Of a stretch of DNA of 64,000 bases, positions 8,182-20,960 are shown in pieces (position 1 is the stretch's first letter; each line of letters starts with the position of its first letter). A program made the translations under genes and the position numbers. Source of the stretch: Tildeniella torsiva UHER 1998/13D. GTDB lineage: Bacteria > Cyanobacteriota > Cyanobacteriia > Phormidesmidales > Phormidesmidaceae. The stretch covers positions 1-64,000 of the forward strand of contig JAHHIH010000030.1 of the NCBI GenBank assembly GCA_019358835.1. The letters are read 5' to 3'. The notes beneath the pieces are model-generated. The model did no database searches. It was not told the origin of the DNA and was given only the letters and a program-made list of their open reading frames with translations.

Positions 8182-11163
8182 ATGACCCAAACGTCGTTTT
8201 CGATTCAGCAAACTTTTCAGTCTCTGGAGCCCTTTGACCGGCTGCCCGCCGAGGCGCTACAGCAGCTCTTGCAAACGGCCCAGCCGCTGAGGTACCGCGT
8301 GGGTCAGCCGCTGCTGCGGCGGGAGGTGCTGACCCAGCAGGTGATTGTGATTTTAGAAGGGCAGGCCCGGCTGCTGGGCTACGACCCTCGCACCCAGCAG
8401 CCCGTTACCCTAGGGCGCTTTAGCCGGGGCAAAATGCTGGGGGTGATCAGCCTGATTCGGGGGGTGTCCTGCGAAACGGTGATTGCCTCTAGCGAGGTGC
8501 TGGCGCTAACGCTGCCCTCGTACACCTTTTTGGGCCTGCTAAAGGAGTACCCAGAGTTTGGCGGGATGGTGTGCGATCGCGTCTATGCGATCGAAGCCTT
8601 TGATCTGGTGGCCGAGCACGCCAAAGCCCACGCTCTCGACGTGGGCGATCTGAAGGCCAAGGCGCAGATTGTCTGTGACGAATCGGCGATCGTCACCCTG
8701 CCCACCGGCCCCAATGACCTGACCCAGCTCGATCGCGCCCTCGTCTGGGTGCTCAGCGGCGGCACCGTGCTGAATATTCCCGTCGGATCAACCTTGGCGC
8801 TCGATCGGCCTGTGGAGATCCTCAGCCCCCAGGGGGCGCGGGTGTTGGGCATGACCCCAGCGGTGCTGGCCGAAACCCTGCCCGAACCCGCTGAGCTAGA
8901 GCCCGAGGCCGTCGCTCGCTCCGTGGAGGTGCTGGATGTCAACAACATTCCCTACGCCACCGAGGCCGATCTGGTGCCCCGCGCCCAGCCCTCGGCCCTA
9001 GAGAAATCCCCCAGCCGCAGCTACCCCTTCGCGCGGGGTCGGGGCGAGGTCGATGGGGCGCTGGCCTGCTTCGACATGCTCAGCCAGCAGTTCTCCATGC
9101 CCTTTCGCAAGGACGTTATTCGCCGCATTTTAGCTAACCAGCACGAGCGCATGGGCCAGCTTTCGCTACCCATCTGCGGCTCGGTGAGCGAAATGATGGG
9201 CCTCAAAACCCAGCTGGTGCGTGTGCCGGTGGGGGCCTTTGGCCGCCTCAACACCCCCTGCCTAATCCGCTGGCAGGAGAGCTTTGCGGTACTCTACGAA
9301 TCCAGCGAAAAAGCCTATATTTTGGGTGACCCCGCCGTGGGCGTCATTCGCCGCACCCCCGAGAGCTTTGCCGAAGCCTGGGGCGAGAGCGGTGAGGTAT
9401 TGCTGCTCGAACCCACCCGCGAAACCCCCCAGCAAAAATTTGGCCTCCAGTGGTTCTGGCCCTCGATTCAAAAGTACCGCTGGGTGCTGATTGAGGTGTT
9501 TGTGGCCTCGTTCTTTGTGCAGCTGTTTGGCCTGGCCAACCCGCTGATGGTGCAGATCATCATCGACCGGGTAATTGTGCAAAACAGCGTCGATACCCTG
9601 CAAGTGCTGGGGGTTTTCTTGGTGGTGGTGGCCATTTTTGAGGCCCTGCTCACCAGTTTGCGCACCTACTTGTTTGTCGATACCACCAACCGCATCGACA
9701 TGGCCCTAGGGTCAGAGATTATCGACCACTTGTTTCGCCTGCCCCTGCGCTACTTCGACAAACGCCCTGTGGGCGAACTCTCCAGCCGCATCAATGAGCT
9801 AGAGAATATCCGCCAGTTTCTCACCGGCACGGCGCTGACGGTGGTGCTCGATGCGGTGTTTTCGGTGATGTACATCGTGGTGATGTTCATCTACAGCTGG
9901 CTGCTGACCCTGGTGGCCCTGGCGACGATTCCGCTGTTTGTGCTGGTGACGGTGCTGACGGCCCCGATTGTGCGTAAGCAGCTGCGCATCAAGGCCGAGC
10001 GCAACGCCGCCACCCAGTCGCTGCTTGTCGAGTCGCTGTCGGGCATTCAAACTGTCAAGGCGCAGAATATTGAGCTACGCACCCGCTGGAAGTGGCAGGA
10101 GCGCTACGCCGAGTACGTCAGCGCCGGGTTTAACACGGTGCTCACCTCCACCACGGCGAATTCCGCCAGCAACTTTCTCAACAAACTCTCGGCCCTGCTG
10201 GTGCTGTGGGTAGGGGCCTACCTGGTGCTGGAGGGCCAGCTCACCCTGGGGCAGCTGATCGCCTTTCGGATTATTTCGGGCTACGTGACCGCGCCGATTT
10301 TGCGCCTGGCCCAGCTGTGGCAAAACTTTCAGGAGACGGCGCTGTCCCTGGAGCGGCTGTCCGACATCATCGACCATCCCCAGGAGACCGACGCCGACGA
10401 GGCCAACCAGATCCCGATGCCCGAGATTACTGGGCAGGTCACCTTTGAAAATGTGGCCTTTCGCTTTGCCCCCTCGGGGCCGTTGCAGCTGGCCAACGTC
10501 AGCCTGGAGTTTCCGGCAGGAATTTTTATTGGTGTGGTGGGCCAGAGCGGCTCGGGGAAGAGCACCCTGATGAAGCTGCTGCCCCGCCTCTACGAGCTAG
10601 AGTCGGGCCGCATTTTGATCGACCACTACGACATCAGCAAGGTGGATCTGCACTCGCTGCGGCGGCAGATTGGCATCGTGCCCCAAGATAGCCTGCTGTT
10701 TGAGGGCACCATTCAGGAGAATATTGCCCTCACCAACCCCGACGCCGAACCCAGCGTGATTATTCAGGCGGCAAAAACCGCCTGCTGCCACGACTTCATT
10801 ATGGATTTGCCCCTGGGCTACAACACCCGCGTCGGCGAGCGGGGCTCGACCCTCTCGGGGGGACAGCGGCAAAGAATTGCGATCGCCCGCACCATCCTGC
10901 AAAACCCGCGCCTGCTGATCTTAGATGAAGCCACCAGCGCCCTCGACTACGACACCGAGCACCAGGTCTCGATGAACCTCAAAGGCTGGGCTGAGGGCCG
11001 CACGGTATTCTTCATTACCCACCGGCTCAACACCATTCAGCAGGCCGACCAGATTTTGGTGATGGAGCAGGGCTCAGCGGTCGAGCTAGGCACCCACGCC
11101 GAACTGATGGAACTCCAGGGGCGCTATTTTACTCTCTACCAGCAGCAGTTAAGTGGCGTTTAA
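8182..11163 (+). CDS. Type I secretion ABC transporter with cyclic-nucleotide-binding and degenerate C39 domains
   Basis: A 993-residue inner-membrane exporter of the HlyB/peptidase-containing type. Residues about 10-130 form a cNMP-binding-like beta-barrel domain. Residues about 280-420 are a C39 peptidase fold, but the catalytic Cys position is Gly292 (D291-G-A-L-A-C-F) and the catalytic His position is Ser367 (S-F-A-V-L), with only Asp383 kept (GDP). It is therefore a non-cleaving C39-like domain, as in HlyB. Residues about 430-720 hold the six-helix membrane domain. The C-terminal ATPase has Walker A GQSGSGKST, signature LSGGQRQR and Walker B LLILDEATSAL. It is paired with a HlyD adaptor 254 bases downstream. 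No cargo or TolC gene is beside it. Confidence 0.93.
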   Translation: MTQTSFSIQQTFQSLEPFDRLPAEALQQLLQTAQPLRYRVGQPLLRREVLTQQVIVILEGQARLLGYDPRTQQPVTLGRFSRGKMLGVISLIRGVSCETVIASSEVLALTLPSYTFLGLLKEYPEFGGMVCDRVYAIEAFDLVAEHAKAHALDVGDLKAKAQIVCDESAIVTLPTGPNDLTQLDRALVWVLSGGTVLNIPVGSTLALDRPVEILSPQGARVLGMTPAVLAETLPEPAELEPEAVARSVEVLDVNNIPYATEADLVPRAQPSALEKSPSRSYPFARGRGEVDGALACFDMLSQQFSMPFRKDVIRRILANQHERMGQLSLPICGSVSEMMGLKTQLVRVPVGAFGRLNTPCLIRWQESFAVLYESSEKAYILGDPAVGVIRRTPESFAEAWGESGEVLLLEPTRETPQQKFGLQWFWPSIQKYRWVLIEVFVASFFVQLFGLANPLMVQIIIDRVIVQNSVDTLQVLGVFLVVVAIFEALLTSLRTYLFVDTTNRIDMALGSEIIDHLFRLPLRYFDKRPVGELSSRINELENIRQFLTGTALTVVLDAVFSVMYIVVMFIYSWLLTLVALATIPLFVLVTVLTAPIVRKQLRIKAERNAATQSLLVESLSGIQTVKAQNIELRTRWKWQERYAEYVSAGFNTVLTSTTANSASNFLNKLSALLVLWVGAYLVLEGQLTLGQLIAFRIISGYVTAPILRLAQLWQNFQETALSLERLSDIIDHPQETDADEANQIPMPEITGQVTFENVAFRFAPSGPLQLANVSLEFPAGIFIGVVGQSGSGKSTLMKLLPRLYELESGRILIDHYDISKVDLHSLRRQIGIVPQDSLLFEGTIQENIALTNPDAEPSVIIQAAKTACCHDFIMDLPLGYNTRVGERGSTLSGGQRQRIAIARTILQNPRLLILDEATSALDYDTEHQVSMNLKGWAEGRTVFFITHRLNTIQQADQILVMEQGSAVELGTHAELMELQGRYFTLYQQQLSGV

Positions 11164-11417: not shown

Positions 11418-12941
11418 ATGGTTCGCATCAACAGCATTCCCCCCACCCCACCGCAGACCCCTGACCAAAACGGTGACGCTGTACTGGCCAACCTGCCCTC
11501 GCGGCAAAAGGTGCAGTTCGACAAGCCCGTGATTCTGCGCCAGTCGCCTCGGTGGTCGCGGGCGGTGGTGTGGAGCCTGGTGGGGGTGACGGCGTTTACC
11601 CTGGCCTGGGCCTGCCTGGCCAAGTTTGAGGAGGCCATACCGGCCCAGGGCAAGCTGGAGCCCAAGGGCATGGTGCAGCCGGTGCAGGCTCCGGTGGGCG
11701 GCGTGGTGCAGGAGGTATTGGTCACCGAGGGGCAGGCTGTGGAGGCGGGCGACCCGCTGCTGCGCTTTGATCCTGAAACTACCCAGGCCCAGCTCACCTC
11801 GCTGGAGACCATTCGCACCAAGCTGCGGGAAGAAAACGCCTACTACAAATCGCAGCTGGCCGATGACCTCGACGCCAGCGCCCCGGTGGATATTGCCCCG
11901 GGCCTGGTGCAGCTGACCAGCAACCGTGCCGCCCTGGTGGCCGAAAACGCCCTCTACCGCGCCCAGCTAGCGGGGGATGTGACGGGGGAAAGTTTGCCGA
12001 TTGCCCAGCGCGATCGCCTGCGGGCCTCTAACGCTGAACTCAACTCGCGCCTCAGCATTGCCAACCTGGAGGTCGATCAGCTGCGCCGCCAGCTCACCCA
12101 GACTGAGGCCCAGCTGACCAACGCCCGCGATGCCCTGCGGGTGAATCAAAATATTCTCGATCGCATTCGACCCCTGTACGAGGCGGGGGGCATCGGCGAA
12201 ATTCAGTACCTTCAGCAGGAGCAGGAGGTGAATAATCGCCAGACTGAGGTGAACCGCCTGGTGGAGGAAGGGCAGCGGCTGGAGCTGGCGATCGAGCAGG
12301 CCCAGGAGCAGTTTCGCAATACCTCCATTGCCTCTCAAGACGAGTTGCAGCAGCGGATTGCCGCCAACGACAACCAGATCGCCACCCTCGACAGCCAGCT
12401 GACCAAAACCATTCTCGAAAACGACAACCGACTGCAAGAGCTCGACAGCCAGATTGCCCAGCTGCAGCAGACCCTCACCTACCAAGAGCTGCGCGCCCCG
12501 GTGAGCGGCACGGTGTTTAACCTCAAGGCCAACCAGGCGGGCTATGTGGCCAACTCCACCGAGCCGATTCTCGAAATTGTGCCCAGCGATGCCCTGGTGG
12601 CGCGGGTGTTTATTACCAACCGCGACATTGGCTTTGTGCGCGAGGGCATGGAGGTCGATGTGCGCATCGACTCGTTCCCCTATAGCGAGTTTGGCGATGT
12701 GAAGGGCACCCTGACCCAGATTGGCTCTGACGCGCTGCCCCCCGACCAGATCAACCCCAACTTTCGCTTTCCGGCAGAAATTACCCTGGGCGATCAGGCG
12801 ATCGCCATTGATGGGCAGCCGGTGAAGCTGCAATCGGGCATGTCGCTGAGCGCTAACATCAAAACCCGGCCTCGGCGGGTGATCACCATTTTCTCTGACC
12901 TGTTTGTACGCAAAATCGACACGATTAAAACGGGTGGGTAA
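11418..12941 (+). CDS. HlyD-family membrane fusion protein (type I secretion adaptor)
   Basis: The 507-residue adaptor links the inner-membrane ABC exporter to an outer-membrane TolC channel. A single membrane helix lies at about residues 48-66 (VVWSLVGVTAFTLAWACLA). The first half-lipoyl motif follows (QPVQAPVGGVVQEVLVTEGQAVEAGDPLLRFD), then a long alpha-helical coiled coil (about residues 115-350, Gln/Glu/Leu rich). The second half-lipoyl (YQELRAPVSGTVFNLKANQAGYV) and a beta-barrel segment complete it. It follows the ABC exporter and must work with it. The 65 bases before the ATG contain a single G and no Shine-Dalgarno sequence, which is unusual. The C-terminus ends KIDTIKTGG. Confidence 0.93.
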   Translation: MVRINSIPPTPPQTPDQNGDAVLANLPSRQKVQFDKPVILRQSPRWSRAVVWSLVGVTAFTLAWACLAKFEEAIPAQGKLEPKGMVQPVQAPVGGVVQEVLVTEGQAVEAGDPLLRFDPETTQAQLTSLETIRTKLREENAYYKSQLADDLDASAPVDIAPGLVQLTSNRAALVAENALYRAQLAGDVTGESLPIAQRDRLRASNAELNSRLSIANLEVDQLRRQLTQTEAQLTNARDALRVNQNILDRIRPLYEAGGIGEIQYLQQEQEVNNRQTEVNRLVEEGQRLELAIEQAQEQFRNTSIASQDELQQRIAANDNQIATLDSQLTKTILENDNRLQELDSQIAQLQQTLTYQELRAPVSGTVFNLKANQAGYVANSTEPILEIVPSDALVARVFITNRDIGFVREGMEVDVRIDSFPYSEFGDVKGTLTQIGSDALPPDQINPNFRFPAEITLGDQAIAIDGQPVKLQSGMSLSANIKTRPRRVITIFSDLFVRKIDTIKTGG

Positions 12942-18908: not shown

Positions 18909-18975
18909 AGCGAGGTTAGGAATGTTTTCTTTGAGTCTTACAATGCTGTTTTGCGGTATTCCTGTATTAGATTGA

Positions 18976-19500
18976 GTGGCCCAGCATTTAGTGGACACCT
19001 TTGCCACCGGGCTGGGCTGGCCTCTAGGTCTGCTAGGTCTGGGGCGATCGCCCTTTACGGCCTGATAGCCATACCCTTTGGTCTAAAAAGTGGGTTTTTG
19101 GTGCAGCAAAATGCCGTTGTTGATCCGCTGAGTTGGGGGCTAGACGCGCTGCGTCGCTTCGTTGCCCCTGCCCTGCTCGAAGAAACGATCTTTCGCGTCA
19201 TGCTGTTGCCCCACCCGGTAGAAGGGGTGCCTGGCGATCGCTGGCTGCTGTGGGGCATCGTCAGCTTTGTGGCGTTTATTTTCCATCACATCTTGCTTGA
19301 TAAAACTTTGTATAAAGGGGCCAATGCGGGCCTCTCTGACCCTCGCTTTTTGGTGCTGGCGGGTTGGGTAGGACTGGTACTTATTGGCGCTTATTGGATT
19401 ACGGGATCGCTCTGGCTAGTGGTGTTGATGCACTGGGCGGTGGTGCTGGTGTAGATCTACGGCCTGGGCGGCTGGGCGCGGCTGCATGGGGTAAGGCGCT
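18976..19500 (+). pseudogene. CPBP-family intramembrane protease, frameshifted and prematurely stopped
   Basis: The intact-looking core (to the stop at 19452-19454) carries the CPBP motifs LEETIFRVML (EExxxR), FIFHHILL (FxxxH type) and a final LMHWAVV. The N-terminus is in another frame: a GTG at 18976 reads MAQHLVDTFATGLGWPLGLLGLG and would join AIALYGLIAIPFG only if one G were added to the GGGG at 19041-19044. Likewise, past the TAG stop the same frame continues IYGLGGWARLHG, matching the usual C-terminal HW...WL..LGG end, as if a Trp TGG had become TAG. I read this as a decaying gene, or as sequencing errors at two places. Confidence 0.6.
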
Positions 19501-19511
19501 TTAATAGAACC

Positions 19512-19530
19512 AGGGGCGATCGCCCCTTTT
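19512..19530 (+). terminator. HIP1-containing hairpin with T tail
   Basis: AGGGGCGATCGCCCCT (19512-19527) is a 16-base palindrome containing the HIP1 octamer and is followed by TTT. It can fold as a 6-bp GC stem with a GATC loop and may end transcription of the CPBP locus. Confidence 0.5.
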
Positions 19531-19753
19531 CGGTGACGGGTCTGTAGCTGCCAAGGCTGACGGAGTCAGTGATCCCCAGTTTGAGACGGTCGCGGGTGGC
19601 TACCCTGCGATCGCCCAAAATTTTCCTAGGCACTCTTAAATTCCTGTGGCACAATACCCAGCGGAGCATTGCAGACCAAGGGGTGGCTCAGCGCCGCCCG
19701 CGACAGATGGCTGTCGCTGATGTTTATCTAAAGGAAAGCAAGGGTGTTCCCTT

Positions 19754-20878
19754 ATGTCTACTGATTTGTCGCCCAACCAAGATTTTTTCAACGAAGAAGA
19801 AGCTGCTGTTGAATTTATCCCCAATGAAGCCTTCTTCAGCAGCACCAGCGTGCTGAGCCTACTGGCTGCCTTTGACCCCGGCTTTGCTGACCTGGTAGCG
19901 GATTTTGCCAGCGCTTTGCCTGATGCTACCGGCCAAATTTCTGTGGAGGATGGCCTGTTTGATGCCAACCTGGTGCTGGCCGACGGCACAGCTCTGACGG
20001 GCACCTTTGATGCCCCCACGACCCTAGGAGGTTTTGCCGATCTGGCCGCTGTCTCGGATGGCACCGTCACTCTCAACGGGGGAATTTTAGAGGCTGCGAT
20101 CGCAACCGATGGTCAAACCGCCACTTTGCCAGCGTTTGACCTGTCTGCCGCCGCTGGCACCCTAGTGCTAGATGCCATCAACGCCATTGATGACACCGTG
20201 CCCTTTGCCAACGGTGCGTTTACCCTAGATCTGGCCACCGCCCTCGGCCCGATTAGTGGCACCGTCGATGTGGCCGGGGGCGACCTCAACCTCGATCTGG
20301 TCACGCCCTTTGGCCAGCTGGTGGCCGACATCGACTTTCAAGATGATGCGGTGTTCCCCTTCGCTGCGGCGCTGCCCCTGGTGGGCGACATCAACGGTGC
20401 CGTTGACCTAAACAGTGGCAACATTGTGGCATCCCTAGGTGCCTATGGCGATCTGTCGGTGCCCCTCTCGGCGGTGACTGGGTCGCTGAATTTTGCTGAC
20501 GGGCTGGCTAGTCTCGATGCCTCAGTGCCTATCGGCTCTGGTTTGAGCTTGCCGGTCGCGACCGATCTCGACCTTGGGCCGTTGGCTAGCGAATACGTGG
20601 CTGGATTTGTCCAAGACTTAGAGGGTACCGGTACGCTTACTGATGGCGTGCTCGATGCTGCGATCGAAAGCCCGCTGGGACTGTTTGAAACGACCTTTGA
20701 CGTGGTGGCCTTTACCAACCAGGGAGCCGACTTTTTCGCCGGTATCGATGGCGTGATTGATGTCAGTGGCGGCATTGCTACGGCTTCGTTGACCACGCCT
20801 CTGGGTGACATCAACGATAGCTTTGACCTGGCGACCGTAGCACCAGCGCTGGAAGGTTCCGCTGCTGCACCGATCTAG
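19754..20878 (+). CDS. Acidic beta-repeat protein with no Lys, Arg, His, Cys or Trp
   Basis: I do not recognise this 374-residue protein. Its composition is extreme: reading the whole translation I find no Lys, Arg, His, Cys or Trp, one Met (the start) and two Tyr, against many Asp and some Glu, so the pI must be very low. After a 25-residue acidic leader (EEEAAVEFIPNEAFFSS) it consists of roughly eight loose repeats of 30-40 residues of the form G-x-[VL]-x-[LV]-x-x-G-x-[LI]-x-A-x-[LI]-x-x-P-[LF]-G, for example SGTVDVAGGDLNLDLVTPFG and TGTLTDGVLDAAIESPLG. There is no signal peptide. An AAAGGAAAG site precedes the ATG and a strong terminator follows at 20911-20960. The features fit an exported beta-repeat protein; this is inference. 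Confidence 0.75.
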   Translation: MSTDLSPNQDFFNEEEAAVEFIPNEAFFSSTSVLSLLAAFDPGFADLVADFASALPDATGQISVEDGLFDANLVLADGTALTGTFDAPTTLGGFADLAAVSDGTVTLNGGILEAAIATDGQTATLPAFDLSAAAGTLVLDAINAIDDTVPFANGAFTLDLATALGPISGTVDVAGGDLNLDLVTPFGQLVADIDFQDDAVFPFAAALPLVGDINGAVDLNSGNIVASLGAYGDLSVPLSAVTGSLNFADGLASLDASVPIGSGLSLPVATDLDLGPLASEYVAGFVQDLEGTGTLTDGVLDAAIESPLGLFETTFDVVAFTNQGADFFAGIDGVIDVSGGIATASLTTPLGDINDSFDLATVAPALEGSAAAPI

Positions 20879-20910: not shown

Positions 20911-20960
20911 GAGAGTGCCTGATCCGTTTGGGAGCGGGTCTCACGGCACTCTCCTTTTTT
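20911..20960 (+). terminator. Rho-independent terminator of the acidic repeat-protein gene
   Basis: GAGAGTGCC (20911-20919) pairs perfectly with GGCACTCTC (20945-20953), and a T run follows to 20960. It is 32 bases after the stop codon. Confidence 0.85.

Follow-up and report, generated by a model that had tools for sequence, protein, structure and literature searches.

The locus and its reading frame

The window, i.e., the whole stretch of DNA that was analysed, comprises 64,000 nucleotides of Tildeniella torsiva UHER 1998/13D. The features considered here, all on the forward strand, are the following:

8182-11163 (+): type I-type ABC exporter with cNMP-binding, C39-like, membrane and ATPase domains (Pfam); candidate export route only
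11418-12941 (+): HlyD-type membrane-fusion protein adjoining the exporter (Pfam HlyD_3, 1.9e-25); candidate export route only
19655-19753 (+): conserved 5' leader with hairpin GCGACAG/CTGTCGC at 19700-19717 (11-sequence genus alignment)
19740-19753 (+): AAGGG-TGTT-CCCTT, a Shine-Dalgarno-like AAGGG within a possible small hairpin, adjoining the start codon
19754-20878 (+): P0001 gene, 374-aa acidic protein free of Lys, Arg, His, Cys and Trp (sequence, AlphaFold2 units, purifying selection, relatives)
20911-20960 (+): intrinsic terminator, 9-bp stem with an inner stem, then CTTTTTT (fold and sequence)

Positions 19754-20878 form a single open frame of 374 codons followed by TAG. The encoded protein, with a mass of 37 kDa, is composed of 60 Ala, 48 Leu, 42 Asp, 40 Gly, 31 Thr, 29 Val, 26 Ser, 26 Phe, 19 Pro, 17 Ile, 14 Asn, 12 Glu, 7 Gln, 2 Tyr and 1 Met, while Lys, Arg, His, Cys and Trp are each absent. 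Translation and counting thus agreed with an earlier note on this DNA, which had described a chain devoid of these five residues, with one Met, two Tyr and many Asp. Under a naive independence model based on the residue frequencies of the own genome, the chance that 373 residues lack all five is about 10^-23, and about 10^-15 for Lys and Arg. These background frequencies come from 464 kb of the genome, in which 315 non-overlapping ORFs with a length of 150 aa or more, P0001 included, were taken longest-first. Among these ORFs, P0001 was the longest stretch free of the five residues (374), the runner-up reaching 207. When Lys and Arg alone were considered, P0001 was equalled by a chemoreceptor-like protein encoded in the own genome, which has a free stretch of exactly 374 residues as well.

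A Shine-Dalgarno-like AAGGG is located 9 nt upstream of the ATG. The start codon is further supported by the leader alignment, since a one-base difference immediately 5' of the ATG sets the window apart from its relatives and the protein downstream is conserved. Behind the gene, the arms GAGAGTGCC...GGCACTCTC form a 9-bp hairpin followed by the T run of CTTTTTT, so that both the ribosome-binding site and the terminator proposed earlier were recovered. The fold of the entire 100-nt stretch was unexceptional (z -1.46), and the terminator was absent from the output of a hairpin pattern scan whose rule takes loops of 3-8 nt only.

The leader showed a mean column identity of 80% in the alignment of 11 genus sequences, and its hairpin was picked up by the pattern scan as well. 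Beside the start codon, AAGGGTGTTCCC was invariant in 11/11 leader sequences, and a pairing of AAGGG with CCCTT is possible there. No Rfam match was obtained for the leader at gathering scores. A regulon defined by the leader motif was rejected: with up to 3 mismatches allowed, the 34-nt core had a single occurrence in the genome, and so had an 18-nt piece with up to 2 allowed. Four members from other genera (L016, L019, L064 and L067) have in common another element upstream of the start codon, GAGCACACGCCC, present as the variant GAGCACGCGCCC in L067, which differs from the leader of P0001's genus. Upstream of the leader, an Rce1-like (CAAX protease) gene at 18951-19454 appears truncated. The sole part found there, at 19047-19532, corresponds to positions 709-869 in a relative of 873 aa (L022:5171-7792), and an in-frame TAG at 19452-19454 cuts the frame.

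Family, residue bias and selection

Out of 57 related genomes, the own one among them, 20 encode a relative of P0001. Within the genus the tally is 15 of 26 (again with the own genome), in the family's other genera 4 of 8 and in other families 1 of 23. In a class-wide draw, a profile built on alignment A1 detected a family member in 46 of 388 genomes, distributed by family label as f1 28, f15 13, f24 4 and f20 1. One match per genome was obtained in 42 of these 46, and two or three neighbouring pieces in the other four. A phylum-wide draw searched with the 21-member alignment A3 returned 1 genome in 386, the own one. The distribution is patchy and varies with the genome draw. The named records with relatives (nine loci) belong to Nodosilinea (4), Leptolyngbya (2), Phormidium tenue (1) and filamentous cyanobacterium (2). 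The copy in the culturable Nodosilinea sp. FACHB-131 is 90% identical. A plasmid or a phage origin was also considered and rejected: tblastn of P0001 gave no match in 72,556 plasmid records at E 0.01, nor did the distant member L071 in the plasmid records, and no match was obtained in 50,697 phage records at E 0.1. No description of the family, which is nameless, was found in the literature listings searched; this does not prove the absence of one.

The bias was kept in relatives at 23-31% identity to P0001. Alignment A3 contains 21 rows and leaves out five of the 20 regions of a wider set, L065, L077, L078, L079 and L080 (the start of L065 is doubtful and probably called too early); the 26 rows of A4 include L077 and L078. 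Cys and His were null in 21/21 members of A3, and the sum of Lys and Arg ranged from 0 to 11, with neither residue in 5/21. Among 22 distinct proteins, the counts were 0-1 for Lys, 0-3 for Arg, 0-1 for His, 0 for Cys and 0-1 for Trp. In the wider set, Lys and Arg together reached up to 12 in f15 members and 13 in the weakest match, L080. Outside A3, Cys occurred twice in L065, once each in L077, L078 and L080, and not in L079. The latter, a 212-aa member (L079:8044-8682, genome G207), lacks all five residues and is made up of short beta repeats, each some 22 residues long as judged by eye; about 1.4 kb from it, L079:1-6666 encodes a giant RTX/Ig/cadherin protein with a length of 2221 aa or more. 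Across A3, the frequencies of Lys, Arg, Trp, Tyr and Met amounted to 5-19% of background; enrichment was seen for Asp, Asn, Gly, Ser, Thr and Phe. Because Lys plus Arg runs from zero upward among members, the trait of the family, as read from these sequences, is a severe depletion, of which total absence is the extreme. As for whether homologues share the bias, a check called for by the earlier note, the strong depletion was thus kept and the total absence was restricted to P0001 and a few others.

Comparison of P0001 with ten orthologs gave dN/dS values of about 0.08-0.18. In these comparisons, whose pairs have a common history, 9 of 312 nonsynonymous single-base codon differences produced one of the five missing residues, where mutation alone would have given about 44. 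In a substitution control, three neighbouring genes gave 12/92, 11/91 and 16/108 (12-15%), and low values were obtained for P0001 (5/138, 3.6%) as well as for the AMIN protein of the window (6/253, 2.4%) and a DUF protein (2/50); in three further genes, changes were too scarce for a judgement (0/18, 1/9 and 0/9). The avoidance of the five residues is therefore ongoing, yet P0001 is not unique in it. Since homologues exist and purifying selection acts on the gene, chance or a wrong frame was ruled out, and P0001 is a real gene that is selectively maintained. Together with the low naive probability, this upholds the earlier statement that the bias could not be due to chance. At the sequence level, the family can be described as unnamed, acidic, built of beta repeats and maintained by selection.

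Conserved long lysine-free stretches, known as lysine deserts, reportedly exist in proteins of the ubiquitin-proteasome system, where they are tied to ubiquitylation. P0001 differs from them in that it also lacks Arg, His, Cys and Trp, and in being cyanobacterial.

The bias might instead reflect the sparing of elements and of synthetic cost, an abundant exoprotein having been purged of nitrogen-rich, sulphur-rich and costly residues with no selection on charge. Indeed, the side-chain nitrogen of P0001 (0.056 per residue) is below that of all 314 other ORFs (median 0.353), and few ORFs are at or below its sulphur content (0.003; 2/314) or its synthetic cost (20.0; 1/314). However, this explanation is weakened because the nitrogen-bearing Asn and the costly Phe are enriched in the family by 1.65-fold and 1.75-fold, respectively. 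Besides, four ORFs with RTX hits and the DUF4394 protein discussed below reach similar sulphur and cost values and have not wholly lost Lys and Arg. We consider such sparing very doubtful.

Predicted structure and hydrophobic faces

The AlphaFold2 model of P0001, computed with alignment A1, reached a mean pLDDT of 78.5 and a pTM of 0.59, with 302 of 374 residues at a pLDDT of at least 70 and low confidence at residues 1-31. After residue 31, the model consists of 24 strands and several helices arranged in beta-beta-beta-(alpha) units, eight of which could be delimited by hand between residues ~57 and 367; helices are absent over the central units. The same arrangement was obtained in a second model, computed for a relative with 26% identity (pLDDT 78.5, pTM 0.56), the two input alignments having members in common. 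Because of the pTM values of 0.56-0.59, the global shape is uncertain. The predicted fold would be a long antiparallel meander with helices. Hence, the beta repeats announced in the earlier note are found again as beta-beta-beta-(alpha) units, and its expectation of a solenoid is not borne out by the prediction.

This model also bears on the idea that P0001 is a disordered, low-complexity chain which acquired its composition by ordinary drift, with no specific function attached to it. In its favor, gains of the five residues are equally rare in the AMIN and DUF proteins. Nevertheless, the pLDDT profile, the low dN/dS and glycines that are invariant across 21 family members argue against this idea, which we regard as highly improbable.

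No known fold was recovered for the family, a point on which the earlier note had made its reading depend. No Pfam model matched P0001 at cut-off (T2SSN and Cadherin_4 lay far below), and nothing was found in NCBIfam. In VIA-align comparisons with solved chains, none reached Z of at least 5 with either model. Foldseek aligned the P0001 model with eight PDB chains at E up to 0.001, TolB being the best (4.6e-5) and TbpB another. As the query-normalised TM was at most 0.13 among the 50 matches listed for each model, with rmsd above 18 A, the TolB, propeller, TbpB and sliding-clamp matches were dismissed. BFVD contained no match at E up to 0.001. A missing structural match with predicted models is not proof of a new fold.

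One hydrophobic and one polar face were distinguished in 22 of the 24 strands, strands 121-129 and 341-348 having no clear face contrast. Such faces would suit a soluble protein with a hydrophobic groove, kin to the beta-grooves of GspN and AsmA, that carries a lipid or another hydrophobic ligand. Some family members have a weak profile likeness to T2SSN/GspN (PF01203): sub-threshold matches were obtained for 5 of the 26 A4 members (best 4.9e-4) and for L079 (1.1e-4), along with one weak match to an AsmA model (0.053). The second structural model also gave weak local matches to fatty-acid-binding proteins, with Z up to 3.5 at an rmsd of 10.5. However, the T2SSN scores listed remained below the curated cut-off of 29.6 bits (22.8 for L079, the best among them, and 12.2 for P0001), and no solved structure was matched at the Z threshold of 5 by either model, though a shared fold may go unmatched in such comparisons. 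AsmA/GspN-like beta-groove proteins possess an N-terminal membrane anchor, whereas P0001 has none, and in the 21 members no 19-residue window had a mean hydropathy above 1.60. A search of the own genome with PF01203 at E 0.01 gave no match. Such a groove protein therefore appears quite unlikely to us.

Possible export or cytosolic function

When 319 ORFs of the own genome were ranked by how closely their departure from the mean genome composition follows that of the family profile, the first rank was occupied by a DUF4394 (PF14339) protein with no evident signal peptide (L103:3773-5566, r 0.92). The five ORFs with RTX (PF00353) hits among the loci examined took ranks 2, 3, 4, 6 and 8, and an ORF with DUF4114 took rank 5. 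The DUF4394 protein is closest in composition and different in domain, P0001 having no PF14339 match. According to a study of the cyanobacterial exoproteome, likely type I secretion system (T1SS) substrates of Synechocystis have no signal peptide, a pI below 5, a Gly-rich sequence and few if any Cys (PMC11424642). P0001 is likewise acidic and Cys-poor with no evident signal peptide. It is also Gly/Asp/Thr-rich, poor in Lys, Arg, His, Trp, Met and Tyr, and rich in LDAVTSIF residues at the C-terminus, as RTX/T1SS exoproteins are. Its pI lies at the calculator floor of 4.05, as in 21/21 A3 members, and 9 of 313 other ORFs are also below 4.2. In a crude signal-peptide test, no Lys or Arg was present in the first 12 residues of P0001 and no strong hydrophobic window was found; over the 21 members, Lys or Arg occurred within the first 12 residues in one only (L071), and no 12-residue window exceeded 1.9 within the first 42 residues. 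A review indicates that the C-terminus of T1SS substrates is enriched in LDAVTSIF (PMC10225607). These residues make up 78% of the last 50 positions of P0001, exceeding 313/313 other ORFs, and 0.52-0.82 in the family, with 2 of 21 members below 0.6 (0.52 and 0.56); this score partly follows from the overall composition.

From this RTX-like composition, the partial fit to features of T1SS candidates and the channel parts present in the genome, we propose that P0001 may be an acidic beta-repeat exoprotein, leaderless and exported by a type I-like system, with no RTX repeats; we see about even chances for and against. The RTX giant near the 212-aa member in G207, the agreement of the two models on architecture and the amphipathic strands point in the same direction. 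Inside the cell, the uniformly acidic and Cys-free chain would remain unfolded and could be exported through an ABC/HlyD/TolC-type channel by means of its C-terminus. Outside, divalent cations would neutralise the Asp-rich face and the chain would fold its beta-beta-beta-(alpha) units into one long antiparallel sheet, with a polar, acidic face opposed to a hydrophobic one partly covered by amphipathic helices. Its destination would be the cell surface, the sheath or the medium, reached by a type I-like route with no need of RTX calcium repeats, and it could serve there as a structural protein of the matrix or surface that binds cations.

Regarding the route, the own genome contains PF00353 proteins, two C39-type exporters and OEP/TolC-like proteins. 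The exporter of the window and the adjacent HlyD gene lie about 6.8 kb upstream of the P0001 gene, with unrelated genes between. In type I secretion, exporter genes frequently, not universally, adjoin the gene of their substrate. The catalytic Cys of C39 domains is located in an (E/D)CG motif; in the C39-like domain of this exporter, no Cys is found where the other C39 exporter of the genome has VECG. Outside the genus, the widest common group of neighbour genes, in 6 of 20 loci, was formed by mixed ABC-transporter genes, that exporter among them. No neighbour group there was more widely shared than this one, and an operon logic was rejected.

Other observations run counter to the export reading. 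P0001 resembles T1SS candidates neither in size nor in calcium motifs: in the same study, these candidates carry calcium-binding motifs, range from 100 to 490 kDa and form a small fraction of the secretome, in which about 78% of the predicted secreted proteins bear a Sec signal (PMC11424642). P0001 is smaller, has no calcium nonapeptide repeats and is built on a different beta-beta-beta-alpha repeat. PF00353 gave no match to P0001 at E 10; at E 1, the 26 members of A4 matched 17 families, none of them the RTX repeat. Distant members, with up to 13 Lys plus Arg and with one Cys in each of L077, L078 and L080, fit less well too. Moreover, the five RTX-hit ORFs retain about 2-7% of Lys plus Arg, whereas the five residues are wholly absent from P0001.

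The chemoreceptor-like protein mentioned above illustrates that a desert of basic residues alone is no proof of export, because it harbors an equally long one. This 889-aa protein (L098:13323-15992, contig C11) has HAMP and MCP signal domains and a TPR match below cut-off. Its 374-residue stretch devoid of Lys and Arg contains 64 Asp and, being placed ahead of two hydrophobic segments, is probably cytosolic. By analogy, P0001 could be a cytosolic acidic scaffold or partner binder, whose acidic face would repel nucleic acids and membranes while the hydrophobic one would serve for partner binding or self-association. The missing signal peptide (crude test) is compatible with this role, and the central units, not covered by helices, would leave a possible binding face. 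However, the chemoreceptor stretch still has 5 His, 1 Cys and 3 Trp, whereas the loss of His, Cys and Trp and the near loss of Tyr and Met in P0001 resemble RTX-type proteins. The limited sharing of neighbour genes outside the genus likewise speaks against this role. We hold a cytosolic role to be rather improbable. With respect to the surface or secreted location advanced in the earlier note, the RTX-type composition and the crude signal-peptide result are in favor of it, but the bias does not prove secretion. Overall, its observation was right and its interpretation is plausible and in part supported.

The arithmetic behind its remark on proteomics was exact: as P0001 contains no Lys or Arg, trypsin would not cut it and the protein would escape routine tryptic proteomics at any level of abundance, which might be why it stayed undescribed. 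In a mat-proteome paper (PMC10689466), a term search retrieved Nodosilinea twice, whereas trypsin, hypothetical protein, secretion and extracellular did not occur. The most complete version of the proposal, an extracellular family with an unsolved, long beta-beta-beta-alpha fold hydrophobic on one face, purged by selection of almost every basic residue and of His, Cys and Trp, thereby purely acidic when exported, protected from trypsin-like proteases and missed by standard proteomics, is unlikely to hold in all its parts. If P0001 is exported, its relatives would constitute a type I-like exoprotein family with a compositional signature in place of RTX repeats, and substrate searches based on these repeats would therefore miss it. 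Whatever its location, P0001 is a natural and apparently folded protein of 374 residues made from 15 amino acids.
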